Source: Bizionia paragorgiae
GTDB lineage: Bacteria > Bacteroidota > Bacteroidia > Flavobacteriales > Flavobacteriaceae
DNA: 64,000 nt
Direction: 5' to 3'
Assembly: GCF_900107625.1 (NCBI RefSeq)
Contig: NZ_FNQK01000010.1
Coordinates: 62,001-126,000 of the forward strand
Part shown: positions 28,690-36,694 of the stretch, piece after piece
Numbering within the stretch: position 1 is the first letter of the stretch
Layout: every line of letters begins with the position of its first letter
Position numbers and translations under genes: made by a program
The notes under the pieces: model-generated
Told to the model about the DNA's origin: nothing
Databases searched by the model: none
What the model saw: the letters and a program-made list of their open reading frames with translations, nothing else

Positions 28690-29598
28690 ATGAATAAACA
28701 CATTAAACGCAGTTGTTTTTTACTGCTTCTTTCCTTAAGCTTTTTAGCTAATGCACAACAGCAATTACCAATAGATTGTACAAGTGACATTGAGCACATT
28801 GCTCAATTACAAGATAGCTCACTTCAAGACATATTAAACACCGAAATAAATTCTAATGCGCAATGGAGGCGCTTAGTAGACTCTAAAAAGATGTCTATTG
28901 GAATTGTTGACCTTAGCGATGCATCGAATATAAGATATGCTGGGATTAATGATGAAAATATGATGTATGCGGCTAGTTTGCCTAAAATAGCTATTCTTTT
29001 GGCTGCCATGGATGCTATAGACAAAGGCGAGCTAAAAGATACTAAGGAAGTTAGAGATGATTTACGCTTAATGATAAGTAAATCTAACAATCAAGCTTCG
29101 ACGCGTATGATTGACCGCTTGGGTTATGAAAAAATAGAAGCCGTTTTACGAGCTCCAGAGACCAAGTTATACGACGAAAATGTAGGAGGAGGTTTATGGG
29201 TAGGTAAGCGCTATGCTGCTTCCGGTAAGCGTCACCCAGAGCCTTTAAAAGGATTAAGTCACGCAGCGACTACAAAGCAAGTGTGTAGTTTTTACTACCA
29301 ATTAGCCATGGGGAACCTAGTGAATACAAAACGCTCGAAAGAAATGTTAGAAATCATGAAAGACCCTGCCTTACACCATAAATTTGTAAATACATTAGAT
29401 CGCATTGCTCCAACGGCAAAGGTCTATAGAAAATCAGGTTCATGGAAAAACTTTCATTCAGATTCTGCATTAGTATGGGGACCAAATAGAAAATATATTA
29501 TCGTTGCTTTAATTGATGACAGTTATGGTGAACAAATTATGAGAAATTTGGTGGAACCATTAGATAAAGTCTTAAAAAAATCACGTTATTTACTGTAG
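28690..29598 (+). CDS. Exported class A beta-lactamase-like serine hydrolase
   Basis: 302 aa with a signal peptide (residues 1-22, ending FLANAQ). Penicillin-recognising motifs: S96-L-P-K99 (SxxK), a Ser-Asn motif at 130-134 (SKSNN), and KSGS near residue 258. The fold is that of class A beta-lactamases and DD-peptidase relatives, but the class A Glu166 loop is not obvious, so lactam hydrolysis is doubtful. It precedes the NTT-HEAT gene by 27 nt, on the same strand. A second, different serine hydrolase lies in the convergent unit. Confidence 0.8.
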   Translation: MNKHIKRSCFLLLLSLSFLANAQQQLPIDCTSDIEHIAQLQDSSLQDILNTEINSNAQWRRLVDSKKMSIGIVDLSDASNIRYAGINDENMMYAASLPKIAILLAAMDAIDKGELKDTKEVRDDLRLMISKSNNQASTRMIDRLGYEKIEAVLRAPETKLYDENVGGGLWVGKRYAASGKRHPEPLKGLSHAATTKQVCSFYYQLAMGNLVNTKRSKEMLEIMKDPALHHKFVNTLDRIAPTAKVYRKSGSWKNFHSDSALVWGPNRKYIIVALIDDSYGEQIMRNLVEPLDKVLKKSRYLL

Positions 29599-29625
29599 AA
29601 ACAACCAACAGTAATTAAAGACGAC

Positions 29626-32460
29626 GTGTTAAAACAAGTATTACACAAAACATTTGGATTAAGAGATGGTGAAATACACATCTCTTTTTTAATGCAATTG
29701 TATGTGTTTTTAATTATTACGGTTTTACTCATTGTAAAGCCAACCGTCAACGCACTTTTCTTATCGCGTCTAGGTGCAGAGCATCTTCCGTATGGTTATA
29801 TCTTAGTTGCAGGTATAGCTGTAATTACTTCTTATTTTTACAATAAGGCACTGCGAAAGTTTTCAATTCTTAATGTCACCATTATTTCATTGATCAGCTT
29901 TAGTCTTAGCTTTATTTTACTGAGTGTTTTTATTCAATTCGCGCTTTTAAATGATGTATTACTCTACATTTATTATTTAGGGGTTTCACTTTTCGCAGTA
30001 ATTGCCACCTCACAATTTTGGATTTTAGCTAATATGGTTTATAATTCAAGAGAAGCCAAGCGCATCTTTGGTTTTATTGGTGCCGGAGCAATTGCGGGAG
30101 GTATATTTGGAGGCTATCTTACCAGTATTATTGCCTCTAATTTCGGAAACAAGACTGTCGTACTCTTAGCAGGACTATTAATTTTATTGTGCATTCCTAT
30201 TTTAAAGAAAATCTGGAAACTGCGCATTCGTAAAATGAACATCTATGTCCGTAAACAACGTAAAGCAAATAAAACAGATGTCGAGGATTCTTCGATTATC
30301 TTAATTTCTAAATCAAAACACTTAACCTATCTTGCCTTTATTACAGGAATAGGAGTAGTGGTTGCTAAATTAGTCGACTTTCAGTTTAGTGATTTTGCGT
30401 ATAAAGCCATTAGTGATCCTGATGAGCTTGCAACCTTTTTCGGATTCTGGTTTTCTACATTTAATGTTATTGCTCTAGTGCTTCAGCTGTTTTTAACTAA
30501 CCGTATACTGAGTAAGTTAGGCGTGTCATCGACACTACTTATTTTACCTTTAGGTATAGCTTTAGGCTGCTTATTGTTTTTAACCTTTCCAGAATTATGG
30601 GTGCTTGTAATTATTAAGGGGATAGATGGGAGTTTTAAACAATCCCTCAACAAAGCAGCAGTTGAATTGTCTATTTTACCCATTCCATTACTTATAAAAA
30701 ACCAAGCTAAATCGTTTATAGATGTCGTTGTAGATAGTATTGCCACAGGAATCTCTGGCTTCATGTTACTTTTCTTAATTCGACGTTTAGAGCTCAGTAG
30801 TTCCTACATCACCGTTATTGTATTACTCTTTGTATTTGTTTGGATTATATTAATTTATAGACTTCGAGAGGCCTATTACGAATCATTTCGTGAAAATATT
30901 CAAAGAAATATTTCTGTAGACTCTAAAAGTAAGAAGAAGCAGAAAAACGACACTACAATTAGTGTGGCTCTAGATATTTTAAATAATGGTAATGAAGAAG
31001 ATATTATTGCTTTACTAAAACATATTAGTAGCTACAAATTAAGAAATTTAAAACCTAATGTCATTCATTTATTAGATCATGACTCTCATGATGTTAAAAA
31101 TGAAGCTATTAAACATTTATATGACTACGATAAGGGTACAGCGATAGAGAAAGTACAGCAATTAGTATATATTAAAAATGATGCTCTTGTATTAACAGCC
31201 TTAGAGTATATTTTAAACCACTCGTCATTATCAGAAGAACATTTTTTCAATAAATATTTAGACAATCAAAGTGATTACATTGCTAATGCAGCTTTACTAT
31301 GCTTAGCTAAAGAAGCATCAAACAACCAACATATAGCAAATCGCTTTCAGTTGGAAACTCGTATTCAGAATAGAGTACGGTATTTAAATTCCCCAGAAGG
31401 CTTTAGCAGAAAAGAGGCTGTAGGAGAGCTATTAATTACCATTGCTTATTCCGGAATAGAAAAGTATTACCCTTTTATTTCCGTCCATTTAAATAATAGA
31501 AACCCCTTTATAGTGGCCAAAGCGATTAAAGCCGCAGGGCTAACCAGCCATCAAAAATATATACTCCCCTTGTTAGAGTACATTGATGATGCGGAGCAGC
31601 GCAAAAATGCTATTAAGGCTTTAAAAGAATTTGGACCGCAAATTATAGACACTATTTTAGAATTAGAAAAAAATGAAACCCTTAAGGATAATATTAAACA
31701 ACATTTACCACGTGTAATCGAAGCGTTTAAAACCCAGGACGCGGTAAAAGTATTGTTTAGACTCATGCGAAGTCGTGATATTATTATCCGTTTAGAAGCC
31801 GTAAAATCGCTAATTAAACTAAAGAATAATAACAGTGCCTTAGATTTTAATAAACGCCTTCTTAAAAGTTTAATCTTTAAAGAAAGTAAATATTATAAAA
31901 CGACAGTGAATGCTATGCTGTCAGTGCGTTATAACATTGAACAGTATAAAGATAACGACGCGTTAACGGATAAAGACACCGAAATTTTACTTGCACGACA
32001 AAGTATTGAAGAGCTTTTAAAGCAACAACAACATCAAAGTTTAAAATGCATTTTTAAGCTGTTAAGTCTGCTGTATTATGAAGATGACATTGAAGTAACC
32101 TATGCCGGAGTCATTAGCGACGTTAAAGAAGCCCGTGTTAACGCCTTAGAGTTTTTAGATAATCTGATTCAAAACGATTTAAAACGGCGTTTATTTCCTT
32201 TAATAGAACACTTTGTAATAGATGAAGATGCTTATGACACCTCTGTTTTAAAGTTAAAACGACTACCAGAAAAAGCCTATATCAATATCTTATTAAAGAG
32301 TAGAGGTAAGAAGATAAAACTTGAGGTTTTAAATCTTATAAAACAGCTAGAAGATGTGAGCTATCTTCCCATTGTACTACCTTATAAAAAACATAGAAAT
32401 AAAGAGGTTAAGTTTTTTGCCTACGACACCATAAACAGCTTACAAGAATTGCAAGCTTAA
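29626..32460 (+). CDS. NTT-type nucleotide carrier fused to HEAT-like repeats
   Basis: 944 aa. Residues 1-415 hold about 12 membrane helices with the signature of ATP/ADP (NTT/TlcA) carriers: FWILANMVYNSREAKR (131-146) followed by a glycine-rich helix, and a second-half block near 335-370 (SFKQSLNKAAVELSILPIP, KSFID). Residues about 440-944 are cytosolic helical repeats of HEAT type with recurring LLDHDSHDVKNEAIKHL-like units. The start is GTG at 29626; the first ATG lies at residue 23, inside helix 1. The ends overlap: its stop and the stop of the convergent gene share bases 32457-32460. Substrate and direction cannot be read from sequence. Confidence 0.8.
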   Translation: MLKQVLHKTFGLRDGEIHISFLMQLYVFLIITVLLIVKPTVNALFLSRLGAEHLPYGYILVAGIAVITSYFYNKALRKFSILNVTIISLISFSLSFILLSVFIQFALLNDVLLYIYYLGVSLFAVIATSQFWILANMVYNSREAKRIFGFIGAGAIAGGIFGGYLTSIIASNFGNKTVVLLAGLLILLCIPILKKIWKLRIRKMNIYVRKQRKANKTDVEDSSIILISKSKHLTYLAFITGIGVVVAKLVDFQFSDFAYKAISDPDELATFFGFWFSTFNVIALVLQLFLTNRILSKLGVSSTLLILPLGIALGCLLFLTFPELWVLVIIKGIDGSFKQSLNKAAVELSILPIPLLIKNQAKSFIDVVVDSIATGISGFMLLFLIRRLELSSSYITVIVLLFVFVWIILIYRLREAYYESFRENIQRNISVDSKSKKKQKNDTTISVALDILNNGNEEDIIALLKHISSYKLRNLKPNVIHLLDHDSHDVKNEAIKHLYDYDKGTAIEKVQQLVYIKNDALVLTALEYILNHSSLSEEHFFNKYLDNQSDYIANAALLCLAKEASNNQHIANRFQLETRIQNRVRYLNSPEGFSRKEAVGELLITIAYSGIEKYYPFISVHLNNRNPFIVAKAIKAAGLTSHQKYILPLLEYIDDAEQRKNAIKALKEFGPQIIDTILELEKNETLKDNIKQHLPRVIEAFKTQDAVKVLFRLMRSRDIIIRLEAVKSLIKLKNNNSALDFNKRLLKSLIFKESKYYKTTVNAMLSVRYNIEQYKDNDALTDKDTEILLARQSIEELLKQQQHQSLKCIFKLLSLLYYEDDIEVTYAGVISDVKEARVNALEFLDNLIQNDLKRRLFPLIEHFVIDEDAYDTSVLKLKRLPEKAYINILLKSRGKKIKLEVLNLIKQLEDVSYLPIVLPYKKHRNKEVKFFAYDTINSLQELQA

Positions 32461-33773
32461 TTCCCAGAATCGTCAGCATCATCTTTGTACACTTCTTCTT
32501 TTACTTCTGTTTTGTTGTCTTTATTATTTTTATTGATGATATCGTCAATTTTACTAGCTAGATACATATGCGCTCCTGCAGAATTCTTATTCAACACGTT
32601 AGACATTAAGCAGACAATATATTTTGTGCCATTAGGATGTTCTACGATGATAACCGAATTCATATAATTAAATACATTACCCGCATAGTCACTACAGTTT
32701 GGATTTTTGGTACGGTCACATTTATAATAACTTCCCGATTTAAAATAAACGGCTGCGCTATCCAAACGCGGTGATCTCGCATAGCGAATACGTCTATCGG
32801 TACTATAAAGCAAGCGTTTCATTTCTAAGCTTGTTTCGTGATCGACTATAGCGCCTTGTTCTAGCTTTACTAAAAATTGCATTAACCCTTTTGGCGTTCC
32901 AATACTACCACCTTTGCGTCCTACATACTTTTCTGGACCACGTGTAAACAGTCCGCCTAATTTCCAATCATTTTCAGCGATTCCCATATTTAATAAAGGT
33001 TCATTAACAACGGCATGCGCCAAGTTAGTTAACGAATCTCTAGAGGTTTCTTTAAAAAATGCATCCGTTTTTTCTTGGTTAAGGAAAAAATACTCCGAAC
33101 CAAAGGCACGCATTAACATAGCTTCACGATACACCACACTAGCGGCACCATTATTACTTACAGACACCATGTGATCTAACCATTCGTATAGAGAAAACTC
33201 ATCACTTGCCACCACGCGTCGTTTTGTTAGTTTGTTTTTCTCAATATCGTAAACAGGAATGGTGTGGTGATCTCCAGTTCCCCAATACCCAGAAGTTACT
33301 CGAGTGTTTTTAAGGTAAAAAGCACGATCTTCCCAAGAATCAGGACACAATTCGCTAAGCTCCGTCATTAAAGCGACTAAAACCGCTAATTTCCCTACAC
33401 TTCCAGGTTGATACCCTACATGCTCGCGATAAGCCGCATACTTTAAATCTTCAGGATTACTCATATCTAAAATTGCTGCCGAATAACCACTACCAGGAAA
33501 CAATGCACGAACCTCTTTTGTAAACGCGTCATCTTCCTTTAATAGCACATCCATACTATCTTTAGATCGCGATTTTAAATTGAGTTTAATGTCTGCCAAG
33601 TTTAAATAAGCTCCAGCTGGAATTCTGTTGTACGGAATACTGTCGACTTGAATTTTTCTTAAATGGTAGAGTCTTGAAATACCGGTAGACTCATAACCAT
33701 CAATAGGGTAGGAGATAAAACCGAAGGACAAGATTATACAAAAACTTATGGTAAAATAGAATAGTTTTTTCAT
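32457..33773 (-). CDS. Second exported beta-lactamase-like serine hydrolase
   Basis: 438 aa with an N-terminal signal or anchor (residues 1-21). SxxK is S125-V-G-K128, SxN is S206-N207-N208, and KSG follows near residue 350. It is longer than the 28690 protein: an extra N-terminal region of about 90 residues and a charged C-terminal tail (KNNKDNKTEVKEEVYKDD). Four Cys are visible in the mature protein: C143, a pair in YYKCDRTKNPNC and one in IVCLMS, as in some exported enzymes. Its ATG overlaps the stop of the upstream dikinase gene (TAATG), so the two are translated together. Confidence 0.8.
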   Translation of the reverse strand: MKKLFYFTISFCIILSFGFISYPIDGYESTGISRLYHLRKIQVDSIPYNRIPAGAYLNLADIKLNLKSRSKDSMDVLLKEDDAFTKEVRALFPGSGYSAAILDMSNPEDLKYAAYREHVGYQPGSVGKLAVLVALMTELSELCPDSWEDRAFYLKNTRVTSGYWGTGDHHTIPVYDIEKNKLTKRRVVASDEFSLYEWLDHMVSVSNNGAASVVYREAMLMRAFGSEYFFLNQEKTDAFFKETSRDSLTNLAHAVVNEPLLNMGIAENDWKLGGLFTRGPEKYVGRKGGSIGTPKGLMQFLVKLEQGAIVDHETSLEMKRLLYSTDRRIRYARSPRLDSAAVYFKSGSYYKCDRTKNPNCSDYAGNVFNYMNSVIIVEHPNGTKYIVCLMSNVLNKNSAGAHMYLASKIDDIINKNNKDNKTEVKEEVYKDDADDSGN

Positions 33774-36694
33774 TAGTATAGCGCCGTGGATAAAGCCACG
33801 TGTTTATTTAAATTAATATTAGGCGAAATAGATATCAAATATTCTGAACTTTTAGCTTGCTTGTTTTCTACAAAAGGGCGGATTTGAAACAGCCACAGTT
33901 TATCGTCTTTAAAACCAAATTCTACATCATAGGCTTGATCTGCATCAGATGTGTTTCCTACTGTTTCCCTGATTGTTTTTGCTAATACTCGAATATCCTC
34001 TATATTTTTTTCATTTAATATAGGAGCGTTGTACGACGTGTAATAGGTTTTTGTCCCACCAACACTTGGTAATCGAATGTAATTAGGTTGTCTTGCAGGC
34101 GCCAATAATTCAGAGCTGTTTTTAGTAATTAATCGCGTTTCTGCCGATTGTCCGTCGACAGCACCACCAGCGCCACGGCTGAAAGCAACTGTTAAGTCGT
34201 TAGCATTACCTGTATTAATTCCTTTAGTAATCATAACTCCAGAATAATCTACATCGACACTTGGAATGATTAAAATAGAAGGGAAAACGTTCTCCGGATT
34301 CGATAAATACTTTTGCCTCCATTTAAAACTACGTTCGGTATAGGCAGAAGCCCAAACCTGCTTGATTCCTTTTAAAATAGCTTCCTCCGAAACGATATTA
34401 AATAAGGTCAAGTTTAAACCAGCGCCGGTAAACTCTTTAAGGTCCTCCATATTAGTATCACTTCTTAAAAACACGGGCACTGTCCCTAACGCACCATTAA
34501 AAGCGTCTTTAAAACTAGCTTTTATATCCTTTTCAAAAGCGCTACTTAAAGGCATCGCTATAATAGCTTTATGTAATTTGGTTAAGTTTTCTAATTGAAA
34601 AGCTTCTATACTTGCTTCATCTGTATTCTCTACACGCATAGCTTCCGCTTTTAAAAACGTATCGGTTAAATAGGTCCAATAGCTTTTTCCTTCGCCAGGC
34701 ATTTGTTGATCCATATGCGATCTAAACACACCAAAGGGAATCACCAAACCTTCTACTACTTGTTCCGGAAATAAGTGTTTAAGCTCTCCCAAGTTTGCAG
34801 CTTTAGGACCGCATAGTTTTCCCGAGTTAACGGCACGTACATCACGCATATTTAAAACTTCATTGGTATCCAATTTAATATCTTCAACAGGGACTGCTAT
34901 TCTATTTTTAGTTTTTTCGGTTTTAGAAAACAAGTCTTTTTCCTCTTCAGTCATATCGCCTTCCACTTTTAAAATAACATGGCCTTGGTTAGACACTGCG
35001 TAGAACACATTTTTACCGTCGTAAGCTTTTAAATCCTTTAGATTCTCGTAGGATAAGGCTGCGTTTGGAATACCTAAATTCCGTGCTAACAGTTGCACAT
35101 GGGATACTAAATTCCCTTCTGAAACGGTCATAATACCTGCTACAGGCTTTAAATCGGAAGGCGGTTTTTCAAAAATATAAATGTTATTAGAGTTTACGTT
35201 AACTTCTTCGGGGTTTCCGTCTACAACCATGAGTTTCCCAAAGGCGTACCCCGGATTTAACCCGCGAATTGCTGTTTGATTTTTAAGGTCTACAACGGCA
35301 TTATTAATGTTTGAAAGCTTCGCGATTAACGCTCCTAATTCACTCACTTCTTCACCAAGGTTTAACGAGATACTACTACGTACTTTGTCGTCTATAAAAC
35401 CATAGGCAAGTGGTTCGAATTTAGTATAGGTATTTACTTCCTCTTGATAATTTGCTTTAACCATTGTCGTTGTCCATTCTACAATACTACGACTCACATT
35501 AAGCACAGCGTGCAGTGTTTTTAATGTTGTTTTTTCTCCAGAAATCTGTGGTAATAATTGCGATTCGATGGCATCATACTCCCAAGATTCAATTAAACCA
35601 GTTCCTAAAGTAGCGCAAGCTAAAGTGTTTATTTTATATAAGTTATCGATTATATTTTCTGACTCCCATTCTTGTGATTCTTTTAATAAAGTATTTTCTA
35701 ATTGTATAGATAAGTCTAAAATTGCTAGTCGGTTTTTACTGTATTTAAAATCGGTAATATGCGTTCTTATTGTATATAAAACGTTGGCTATTGCCGAAGA
35801 TATTTGTTCTGGAGTAGAAGCTTGGGTATAGTCTTTTAGAAAGTTTGAAACACTAAGTGTCGCTTCATTTTTTTCGGTAATTTTTGATAAATCATCTTGT
35901 AAAACCTTAAAATCGATAGGAGCATAAAAGGCTTGCATCGTTTTTACTAATGCTTCAAACGCAGTTAATTCCTCTGCTTTCAATACAGATGCCTTGGTTT
36001 TAAGATAGTTGTTTACAAGTTTTATATCCGAGACTTCTGGCTGGCCATGAATTTTAATTCTGATATCCATAAACGACGGATGGTCTTCAGATAATAGTTT
36101 AGACTGACTACGCATGAGTTGCGCTATATTATCATCTCCGCTATGGGGAATATCTTTTAAACTTTGGCGTATTAAATAGTAATTTTGAATAATGAAGTCA
36201 TCATCCTTTAAGATTTGAATAAAAAAGTCTTTACCCCATGTTTCTTCATCTTCCGATTGGATAGCACCACGGTAAAATTGTGCTTTTCTAAGTACCCATC
36301 CATTATCAACACTACTTAAGTATTTTCCTATTTGATATTGCTTTAAACGACTAAAATTAGCATTGCGATCTAAAAACTCTTTTGGGGATAAGCCTGCTAA
36401 AATTTCACCAAAAAATAAGTGATTACTACGTCTTAACTGTAGTGCTGACGCCTTAAAACTTGCGTGTTGTATTCCGCCTCCAATAGCGTCTGGACAAGGA
36501 TCTTTAGGCTCTCTTTCTGTGCCGTCTTCACAAAACCATTTAATACGATGGTAGGGGCCACGTGGATCATCCTTATAAGTTGAAATCAACTGTGATATCT
36601 CCTGAGGCGTTCGTTCTTGTGAATAGGTCTTTAGCGTAAAACAATTGGCAATAAGAAATAGAGCTACAAATTTAAGTGTATTCATAAAGTGCAT
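33773..36694 (-). CDS. Exported PEP-utilizer/PPDK-type dikinase-like protein
   Basis: 973 aa with a signal peptide (about 1-25, ending TYSQ); ATG 36685 would shorten it by three residues. Residues 30-470 are mostly helical, with a Cys pair at 55 and 67. A phosphohistidine (PEP-utiliser mobile) domain lies at about 475-580 with H532 in SEGNLVSHVQLLARNLGIP. A PPDK N-type ATP-binding domain follows at about 615-945: GPKAANLGELK, FLRSDTNMEDLKEFTGAG, SGVMIT and VEFGFKDDKLWLFQIRPF. Having His before ATP domain matches plant glucan/phosphoglucan water dikinases rather than PPDK or PEP synthase, and no PEP/pyruvate-binding barrel is present. Activity and acceptor are unknown. Confidence 0.8.
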   Translation of the reverse strand: MHFMNTLKFVALFLIANCFTLKTYSQERTPQEISQLISTYKDDPRGPYHRIKWFCEDGTEREPKDPCPDAIGGGIQHASFKASALQLRRSNHLFFGEILAGLSPKEFLDRNANFSRLKQYQIGKYLSSVDNGWVLRKAQFYRGAIQSEDEETWGKDFFIQILKDDDFIIQNYYLIRQSLKDIPHSGDDNIAQLMRSQSKLLSEDHPSFMDIRIKIHGQPEVSDIKLVNNYLKTKASVLKAEELTAFEALVKTMQAFYAPIDFKVLQDDLSKITEKNEATLSVSNFLKDYTQASTPEQISSAIANVLYTIRTHITDFKYSKNRLAILDLSIQLENTLLKESQEWESENIIDNLYKINTLACATLGTGLIESWEYDAIESQLLPQISGEKTTLKTLHAVLNVSRSIVEWTTTMVKANYQEEVNTYTKFEPLAYGFIDDKVRSSISLNLGEEVSELGALIAKLSNINNAVVDLKNQTAIRGLNPGYAFGKLMVVDGNPEEVNVNSNNIYIFEKPPSDLKPVAGIMTVSEGNLVSHVQLLARNLGIPNAALSYENLKDLKAYDGKNVFYAVSNQGHVILKVEGDMTEEEKDLFSKTEKTKNRIAVPVEDIKLDTNEVLNMRDVRAVNSGKLCGPKAANLGELKHLFPEQVVEGLVIPFGVFRSHMDQQMPGEGKSYWTYLTDTFLKAEAMRVENTDEASIEAFQLENLTKLHKAIIAMPLSSAFEKDIKASFKDAFNGALGTVPVFLRSDTNMEDLKEFTGAGLNLTLFNIVSEEAILKGIKQVWASAYTERSFKWRQKYLSNPENVFPSILIIPSVDVDYSGVMITKGINTGNANDLTVAFSRGAGGAVDGQSAETRLITKNSSELLAPARQPNYIRLPSVGGTKTYYTSYNAPILNEKNIEDIRVLAKTIRETVGNTSDADQAYDVEFGFKDDKLWLFQIRPFVENKQAKSSEYLISISPNINLNKHVALSTALY

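Follow-up and report, generated by a model that had tools for sequence, protein, structure and literature searches.

A conserved four-gene unit pairing an exported dikinase-like protein with an NTT-HEAT carrier-family protein suggests an undescribed mode of energy-driven envelope chemistry

We analysed a 64,000-nucleotide stretch of the Bizionia paragorgiae contig NZ_FNQK01000010.1 (hereafter the window), which contains at positions 28690-36694 the genes for an exported dikinase-like protein (DIK), an NTT-type membrane protein fused to HEAT repeats (NTT-HEAT) and two PF13354 serine hydrolases (BLA1 and BLA2). That the four genes form a module is established, and the analysis shows their linkage and co-occurrence, the export signals, the intact catalytic motifs and the NTT fold of the membrane protein. 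This gene set, which marine Bacteroidetes maintain as a fixed group, suggests a mode of energy-driven envelope chemistry that is so far undescribed. We tentatively read it as a module for ATP-driven envelope chemistry in which an extracytoplasmic ATP-dependent phosphotransferase is fed by a dedicated carrier, and give this reading not quite an even chance. Its fuller form, a dedicated extracytoplasmic phosphotransfer system made of an exported dikinase whose acceptor domain is new, nucleotide supply by NTT-HEAT across the inner membrane and two acyl-serine hydrolases, with an envelope polymer as target, is possible and somewhat more doubtful.

The conservation of the locus was assessed by scanning 84,980 species genomes with DIK. 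The scan returned 129 relatives, and the best 80 of these 129 were analysed; all 80 are titled Bacteroidetes and nearly all belong to the Flavobacteriaceae. The DIK homologues are 53-81% identical to the window's DIK, and the closest among the best 80, that of Bizionia saleffrena (81%, L034), lies in a locus where the flanking genes are conserved too. The order DIK> BLA2> NTT< BLA1< (arrowheads give gene direction) is found in 69 of the 97 loci with DIK, the others being partial, as some contigs end early, or rearranged. Among 84 loci, BLA2 is present in 84, NTT-HEAT in 70 and BLA1 in 68, and the window's flanking genes recur in at most six. Clustering of open reading frames (ORFs) from 82 loci returned as conserved families exactly DIK, BLA2, NTT-HEAT and BLA1. 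Beyond the Flavobacteriaceae, loci L158, L178 and L179, which come from another class and from another family, have the same order. L159, again from another class, shows DIK-BLA2-NTT; L162, from a different family in the class of the Flavobacteriaceae, shows DIK> BLA2> NTT> BLA1<; and L163 and L165 have DIK-BLA2-BLA1 with NTT not adjacent. Because the order recurs while the flanks vary, the four genes are a real unit whose linkage goes far beyond chance. The earlier note on this DNA had claimed that they belong together and had named a lack of neighbourhood in related genomes as one counter-finding; the neighbours proved to be conserved and the flanks not.

Co-occurrence was examined in a family sample of 199 Flavobacteriaceae genomes from 198 genera, in which presence was scored by the N-terminal domain of DIK. 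This domain is found in 39 of the 199 genomes, and full-length NTT-HEAT, detected with an NTT-domain profile at 564-727 bits, in exactly the same 39. The remaining profile matches (19-94 bits) are three shorter NTTs of about 440 amino acids and fragments. The Pfam NTT model alone recognises 38 of the 39 DIK genomes and zero genomes without DIK. In three genomes (G608, G640, G684) DIK and NTT-HEAT are unlinked, and both are retained. The one-to-one pairing within the Flavobacteriaceae is therefore established. A phylum-wide sample of 345 genomes contained DIK in 11, PF03219 in 23 and both in nine. Fisher's test gave p = 2e-10 for the phylum and p = 4e-40 for the Flavobacteriaceae (on the weaker Pfam counts), values that overstate the strength as shared ancestry is uncorrected. 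By the NTT profile, NTT-HEAT is present in 8 of the 9 DIK genomes checked outside the Flavobacteriaceae.

Conserved order, changing flanks and one-to-one co-occurrence rule out a chance neighbourhood. They also bear on the idea that the four genes adjoin one another for historical reasons only, with no joint work. This is a general possibility, and shared ancestry does inflate the counts; it is nonetheless hardly credible here, since the order is kept while the flanks change, the genes are clustered even where they are rearranged in other classes, and the pairing in the Flavobacteriaceae extends to unlinked genes.

Several variants of the locus were observed. One (L044:9959-18195) is an apparent natural chimera with its halves joined at the convergent stops: its DIK (86% identity) and BLA2 (91%) resemble those of L048, and its NTT (90%) and BLA1 (75%) those of L085. 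The DIK-BLA2 and NTT-BLA1 halves look as if they were exchangeable parts of one system, or the mix may be an assembly artefact. In one genus of another family (L160, L180) DIK is isolated at its locus and NTT-HEAT lies elsewhere in the genome. At four loci from the window's own family (L006, L009, L010, L013), the His half, the ATP half or both are matched at 26-29% identity, and stop codons separate the matching stretches; the dikinase may be divided there between two genes or subunits. The Flavobacteriaceae genomes G518, G619 and G577, which lack DIK, have an NTT of about 440 amino acids (64-94 bits), too short for HEAT repeats.

The features of the locus in the window are collected in Table 1. 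The coordinates and strands of all four ORFs match the earlier note, and both arrangements described there are seen in the sequence: the convergent genes NTT-HEAT and BLA2 overlap by four bases at their stop codons (TTAA), and TAATG joins DIK to BLA2. DIK is the one PPDK_N gene and NTT-HEAT the one TLC gene of the B. paragorgiae genome.

Table 1. Features of the four-gene locus, with positions in the window
Feature	Position	Strand	Basis
BLA1, exported class-A-beta-lactamase-like serine hydrolase, 302 aa (amino acids)	28690..29598	+	PF13354 5e-22; signal sequence
NTT-HEAT, whole ORF	29626..32460	+	ORF call
NTT-HEAT, NTT-type 12-helix membrane domain, residues 1-430	29626..30915	+	PF03219; Foldseek
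NTT-HEAT, HEAT-repeat domain, residues 444-943	30955..32457	+	HEAT_2 1.3e-14; all-helical model
BLA2, exported or membrane-anchored PF13354 serine hydrolase, 438 aa	32457..33773	-	PF13354 8.7e-8
DIK, exported dikinase-like protein, 973 aa	33773..36694	-	ORF, domain and residue evidence
DIK signal sequence, residues 1-26, ...TYSQ/E	36617..36694	-	hydrophobic segment with preceding K/R in homologues
DIK N-terminal domain, residues 27-470, no known relative	35285..36616	-	no database match; conservation
DIK phosphohistidine-type domain, residues 471-600	34895..35284	-	alignment to P. furiosus PEP (phosphoenolpyruvate) synthase 8a8e; weak PF22973/PF00391
DIK His532 codon, predicted phosphoryl carrier, in GNLVSHVQLLARN	35099..35101	-	invariant, 32 homologues
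DIK ATP-grasp (PPDK_N) domain, residues 613-945	33860..34858	-	PF01326 1.4e-29; fold; invariant residues

Export signals were scored by a simple hydrophobicity rule on aligned homologues. The DIK N-terminus has in 32 of 32 homologues a basic residue followed by a hydrophobic stretch, usually ending in xAQE or xSQE, and is typical of a Sec signal sequence. A mis-called signal on a cytosolic PEP synthase was ruled out because the hydrophobic start is kept in all 32 despite the divergence of the sequence. DIK is thus predicted to be exported, as the earlier note had proposed, and not cytosolic.

The C-terminal half of DIK resembles enzymes of the dikinase type. Pfam detects PPDK_N (PF01326) at residues 627-950 with an E-value of 1.4e-29, and in the AlphaFold model (pLDDT 80) the ATP domain lies on that of rifampin phosphotransferase (RPH, 5hv6) with TMt 0.84-0.85. 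K631, R744, D923, E925, Q937 and R939 are invariant in 32 homologues; from alignments to PPDK and RPH and from family knowledge, we take these six residues to be the equivalents of the PPDK ATP contacts K22/R92/D321/E323/Q335/R337. A degenerate ATP domain is ruled out by the invariant ATP-site residues, whose absence the earlier note had named as a finding that would count against it. Pfam matches the phosphohistidine domain weakly, with an E-value of about 0.08 that falls short of the cut-off. The C-terminal half can be aligned to PEP synthases and RPH, and the catalytic histidine of the P. furiosus PEP synthase matches H532 (GNLVSHVQLLARN), the predicted phosphohistidine, which is likewise invariant in the 32 homologues. 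The combination of a phosphohistidine domain and a PPDK-type ATP domain put forward in the earlier note is consistent with the PPDK_N match and the aligned, invariant H532.

Domain order and model cut-offs rule out DIK as an orthologue of PEP synthase, PPDK or rifampin phosphotransferase. A PEP/pyruvate-binding barrel was found neither by Pfam nor by structure search, and the ATP domain is C-terminal, ending at about residue 945 of 973. A phage or plasmid origin was rejected, as the DIK N-terminal domain is absent from plasmids and viral contigs and the phage matches cover the ATP domain only, at 23-24% identity. A defence system was rejected as well, with no informative PADLOC match.

Residues 27-470 of DIK have no match in Pfam, NCBIfam or the PDB. 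The fraction of invariant residues is 24% at 25-220, 9% at 221-470 and 31-32% in the catalytic domains. Residues 25-220, conserved near the level of the catalytic domains, are therefore likely an acceptor-binding or second catalytic part, and the N-terminal half as a whole (27-470) probably binds the acceptor. It contains two invariant cysteines (C55 and C67); C628, outside this domain, is found in 94%. The earlier note had suggested a glycan among the possible acceptors. The domain order acceptor-His-ATP is like that of glucan water dikinase, but no carbohydrate- or glucan-binding domain was matched in 27-470 by sequence or fold.

Both halves of the protein bear on another reading, in which DIK is an ATP-dependent ligase whose phosphohistidine chemistry activates the acceptor to form a new amide, ester or ether bond in the envelope, with BLA1 and BLA2 cutting or transferring the same kind of bond. 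The C-terminal half does match the dikinase-type ligases PigC (2.7e-20) and RedH (9.9e-17), and PBP-type hydrolases are known as a family to act on peptide or ester bonds. However, PEP synthase models match more strongly (1.1e-26), and a condensation domain is not recognised in the N-terminal half. We consider a ligase improbable.

Both hydrolases possess the SxxK, SxN and K(T/S)G motifs and match PF13354 above cut-off. In BLA1, S96-LP-K99, S132-N-N134 and K248-SG are invariant in 22 homologues; in BLA2, S125-VG-K128, S206-NN208 and K345-SG are invariant in 24. Models of true class A beta-lactamases gave 21.9 bits for BLA1, against a cut-off of 200, and zero match for BLA2. Both may act as DD-peptidases or esterases. 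The hydrophobicity rule finds a signal sequence in 22 of 22 BLA1 homologues and an N-terminal hydrophobic segment in 23 of 24 BLA2 homologues, so that, with DIK, the three products predicted in the earlier note to carry export signals appear to do so.

NTT-HEAT matches the NTT family in Pfam (PF03219, 1e-10, 41.5 bits against a cut-off of 21) as well as HEAT_2 (1.3e-14). The top Foldseek matches of its membrane part are the plastid protein AtNTT1 (9j3l, TMt 0.75) and the Chlamydia protein CpNTT1 (9j3n, 0.68), at 17-18% identity. They outrank all other MFS proteins by E-value, which disfavours a generic MFS protein. NTT-HEAT is thus an NTT by family, and probably a carrier of something charged. 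The HEAT repeats would be cytoplasmic if the protein has 12 transmembrane helices with its N-terminus inside, as the even number of helices and the positive loops suggest. According to Major et al. 2017 (PMC5381601), NTT-HEAT fusions are monophyletic, widespread in bacteria and functionally uncharacterised.

Other surroundings of NTT-type proteins were also observed. In Bacteroidota of other classes that have no DIK (L167, L168, L170, L171, L172, L175), NTT-HEAT lies beside Omp85-type proteins and a large lipoprotein without a Pfam match, and in some of these loci a metallophosphoesterase or a second, single-domain NTT is also near. This is a second, different envelope context for NTT-HEAT. 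In two further genera (L173:6981-13435, L174:7056-13520) a divergent NTT-like protein of about 1050 amino acids is followed by another protein of about 1050 amino acids. In L173 this second protein is an nSTAND NTPase that carries WD40 repeats, which points to a further partner for NTT-like proteins.

For the nucleotide cargo and its direction, the phosphotransfer reaction, the identity of the acceptor and the targets of the hydrolases, we infer the following mechanism. DIK would be exported to the periplasm, where its C-terminal ATP-grasp domain would phosphorylate His532 on the swivelling phosphohistidine domain. The phosphoryl group would then pass from His532 to an acceptor on the new N-terminal domain by a dikinase mechanism that yields AMP as a by-product. 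From its place in the inner membrane, NTT-HEAT would bring nucleotide to the periplasmic side and take used nucleotide back, its HEAT repeats serving on the cytoplasmic side for docking or control. BLA1 and BLA2, as acyl-serine hydrolases of the DD-peptidase/esterase type, may act on the same envelope acceptor by preparing it, trimming it or turning it over.

Several points weigh against this mechanism. The bacterial periplasm is generally considered poor in ATP, no acceptor of DIK is known, and the phosphohistidine region is poorly modelled (pLDDT <50 at 511-548). The co-occurrence test carries no correction for shared ancestry, and in the distant genome G358 DIK, BLA2 and BLA1 are accompanied by no more than a divergent NTT, weakly matched and without HEAT. 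The transport residues of the carrier count here as well. Four charged residues of AtNTT1, K155, E245, E385 and K527, are important for transport (PMC10654386), and mutants of three of them have been described (PMC3306366). We mapped them by counting along the HMMER alignment, with an assumed offset of 84, by which each of the four falls on a matching residue of the chain. In NTT-HEAT, E245 is replaced by S121 (S/A/G) and K527 by T374; E385 corresponds to D251, an invariant and conservative replacement; K155 falls outside the aligned part and is unmapped.

Because E245 and K527 are replaced, classical ATP/ADP exchange is not supported by the residues of NTT-HEAT, while its membership of the NTT fold is unaffected. 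Of the nucleotide carrier proposed in the earlier note, family and fold (PF03219, AtNTT1/CpNTT1) were upheld; of the three transport residues that could be aligned, two are replaced. Other charged residues of the membrane part are invariant (K38, D251, K331, D334, K338, K343, E347, D366 and D370), which suggests a charged, possibly different cargo. NTT-HEAT may thus work in the same module and carry another charged compound than ATP, e.g. a phosphorylated product, NAD or a precursor, with DIK drawing on a different source of phosphoryl groups, for instance ATP from lysed cells or some other phospho-donor. Such a cargo has a precedent in PamNTT4, an NTT outside the classical clade that transports NAD (PMC5381601). 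The perfect pairing of an ATP-type enzyme with a member of a nucleotide-carrier family is, however, most simply explained by nucleotide supply, and we regard a different cargo as unlikely, though a serious alternative.

The direction could also be reversed. DIK would then take phosphate from a phosphorylated envelope or extracellular compound and convert AMP to ATP, which NTT-HEAT would import, so that the module scavenges phosphate and energy. PPDK is a reversible enzyme, and the classical NTTs of intracellular parasites import ATP, as stated by Major et al. (PMC5381601). Yet the reverse reaction requires AMP and a high phosphoryl potential outside the cytoplasm, and a phosphatase-type partner is not among the conserved neighbours in the ORF clustering of 82 loci. 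We judge it decidedly improbable.

In this module DIK, whose ATP site is intact and whose signal sequence is ancient and conserved, has as its one-to-one partner an orphan member of the ATP-carrier family. ATP-using enzymes are thought useless in the bacterial periplasm, as ATP is not kept there. If NTT-HEAT supplies DIK with nucleotide, these textbook limits on envelope chemistry change: NTT-HEAT proteins would get their first function, and some bacteria would deliberately place ATP in the periplasm. Even with other cargo, the NTT-HEAT family gains a named partner and becomes testable in culturable marine bacteria.

Among known systems, the alpha-glucan water dikinases (GWD/PWD) share with DIK an acceptor part, a phosphohistidine domain and a C-terminal ATP domain, and lack the PEP-binding barrel; the GWD phosphohistidine model gives a trace match to DIK (E 0.078). 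Unlike them, DIK is exported, and no carbohydrate-binding domain is recognisable in its N-terminal part. Rifampin phosphotransferase and PEP synthase share the ATP domain, by sequence and fold, and the catalytic His motif; in contrast to DIK, they are cytosolic, begin with the ATP domain and possess a rifampin- or pyruvate-binding domain. The plastid and Chlamydia ATP/ADP translocases AtNTT1 and CpNTT1 have the fold of the NTT-HEAT membrane part, whereas NTT-HEAT is 17-18% identical to them, has lost E245/K527, has Asp for E385 and carries an added HEAT domain. The fusions of Major et al. 2017 have the same architecture, an NTT fused C-terminally to HEAT repeats; some also contain a cyclic-nucleotide-binding domain, absent here, and the available part of that paper (PMC5381601) does not mention DIK, BLA1 or BLA2.

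Nothing usable was found in the open-access literature on an exported dikinase or on a dikinase with these partners, and we know of no described system of this four-part make-up. Its parts come from known families, except for the N-terminal domain of DIK. Luminal kinases of the eukaryotic secretory pathway, such as Fam20C, are fed by SLC35-type ATP carriers. The idea of a non-cytosolic kinase served by a nucleotide carrier is common to both; the protein families are unrelated, and the likeness is one of analogy only.

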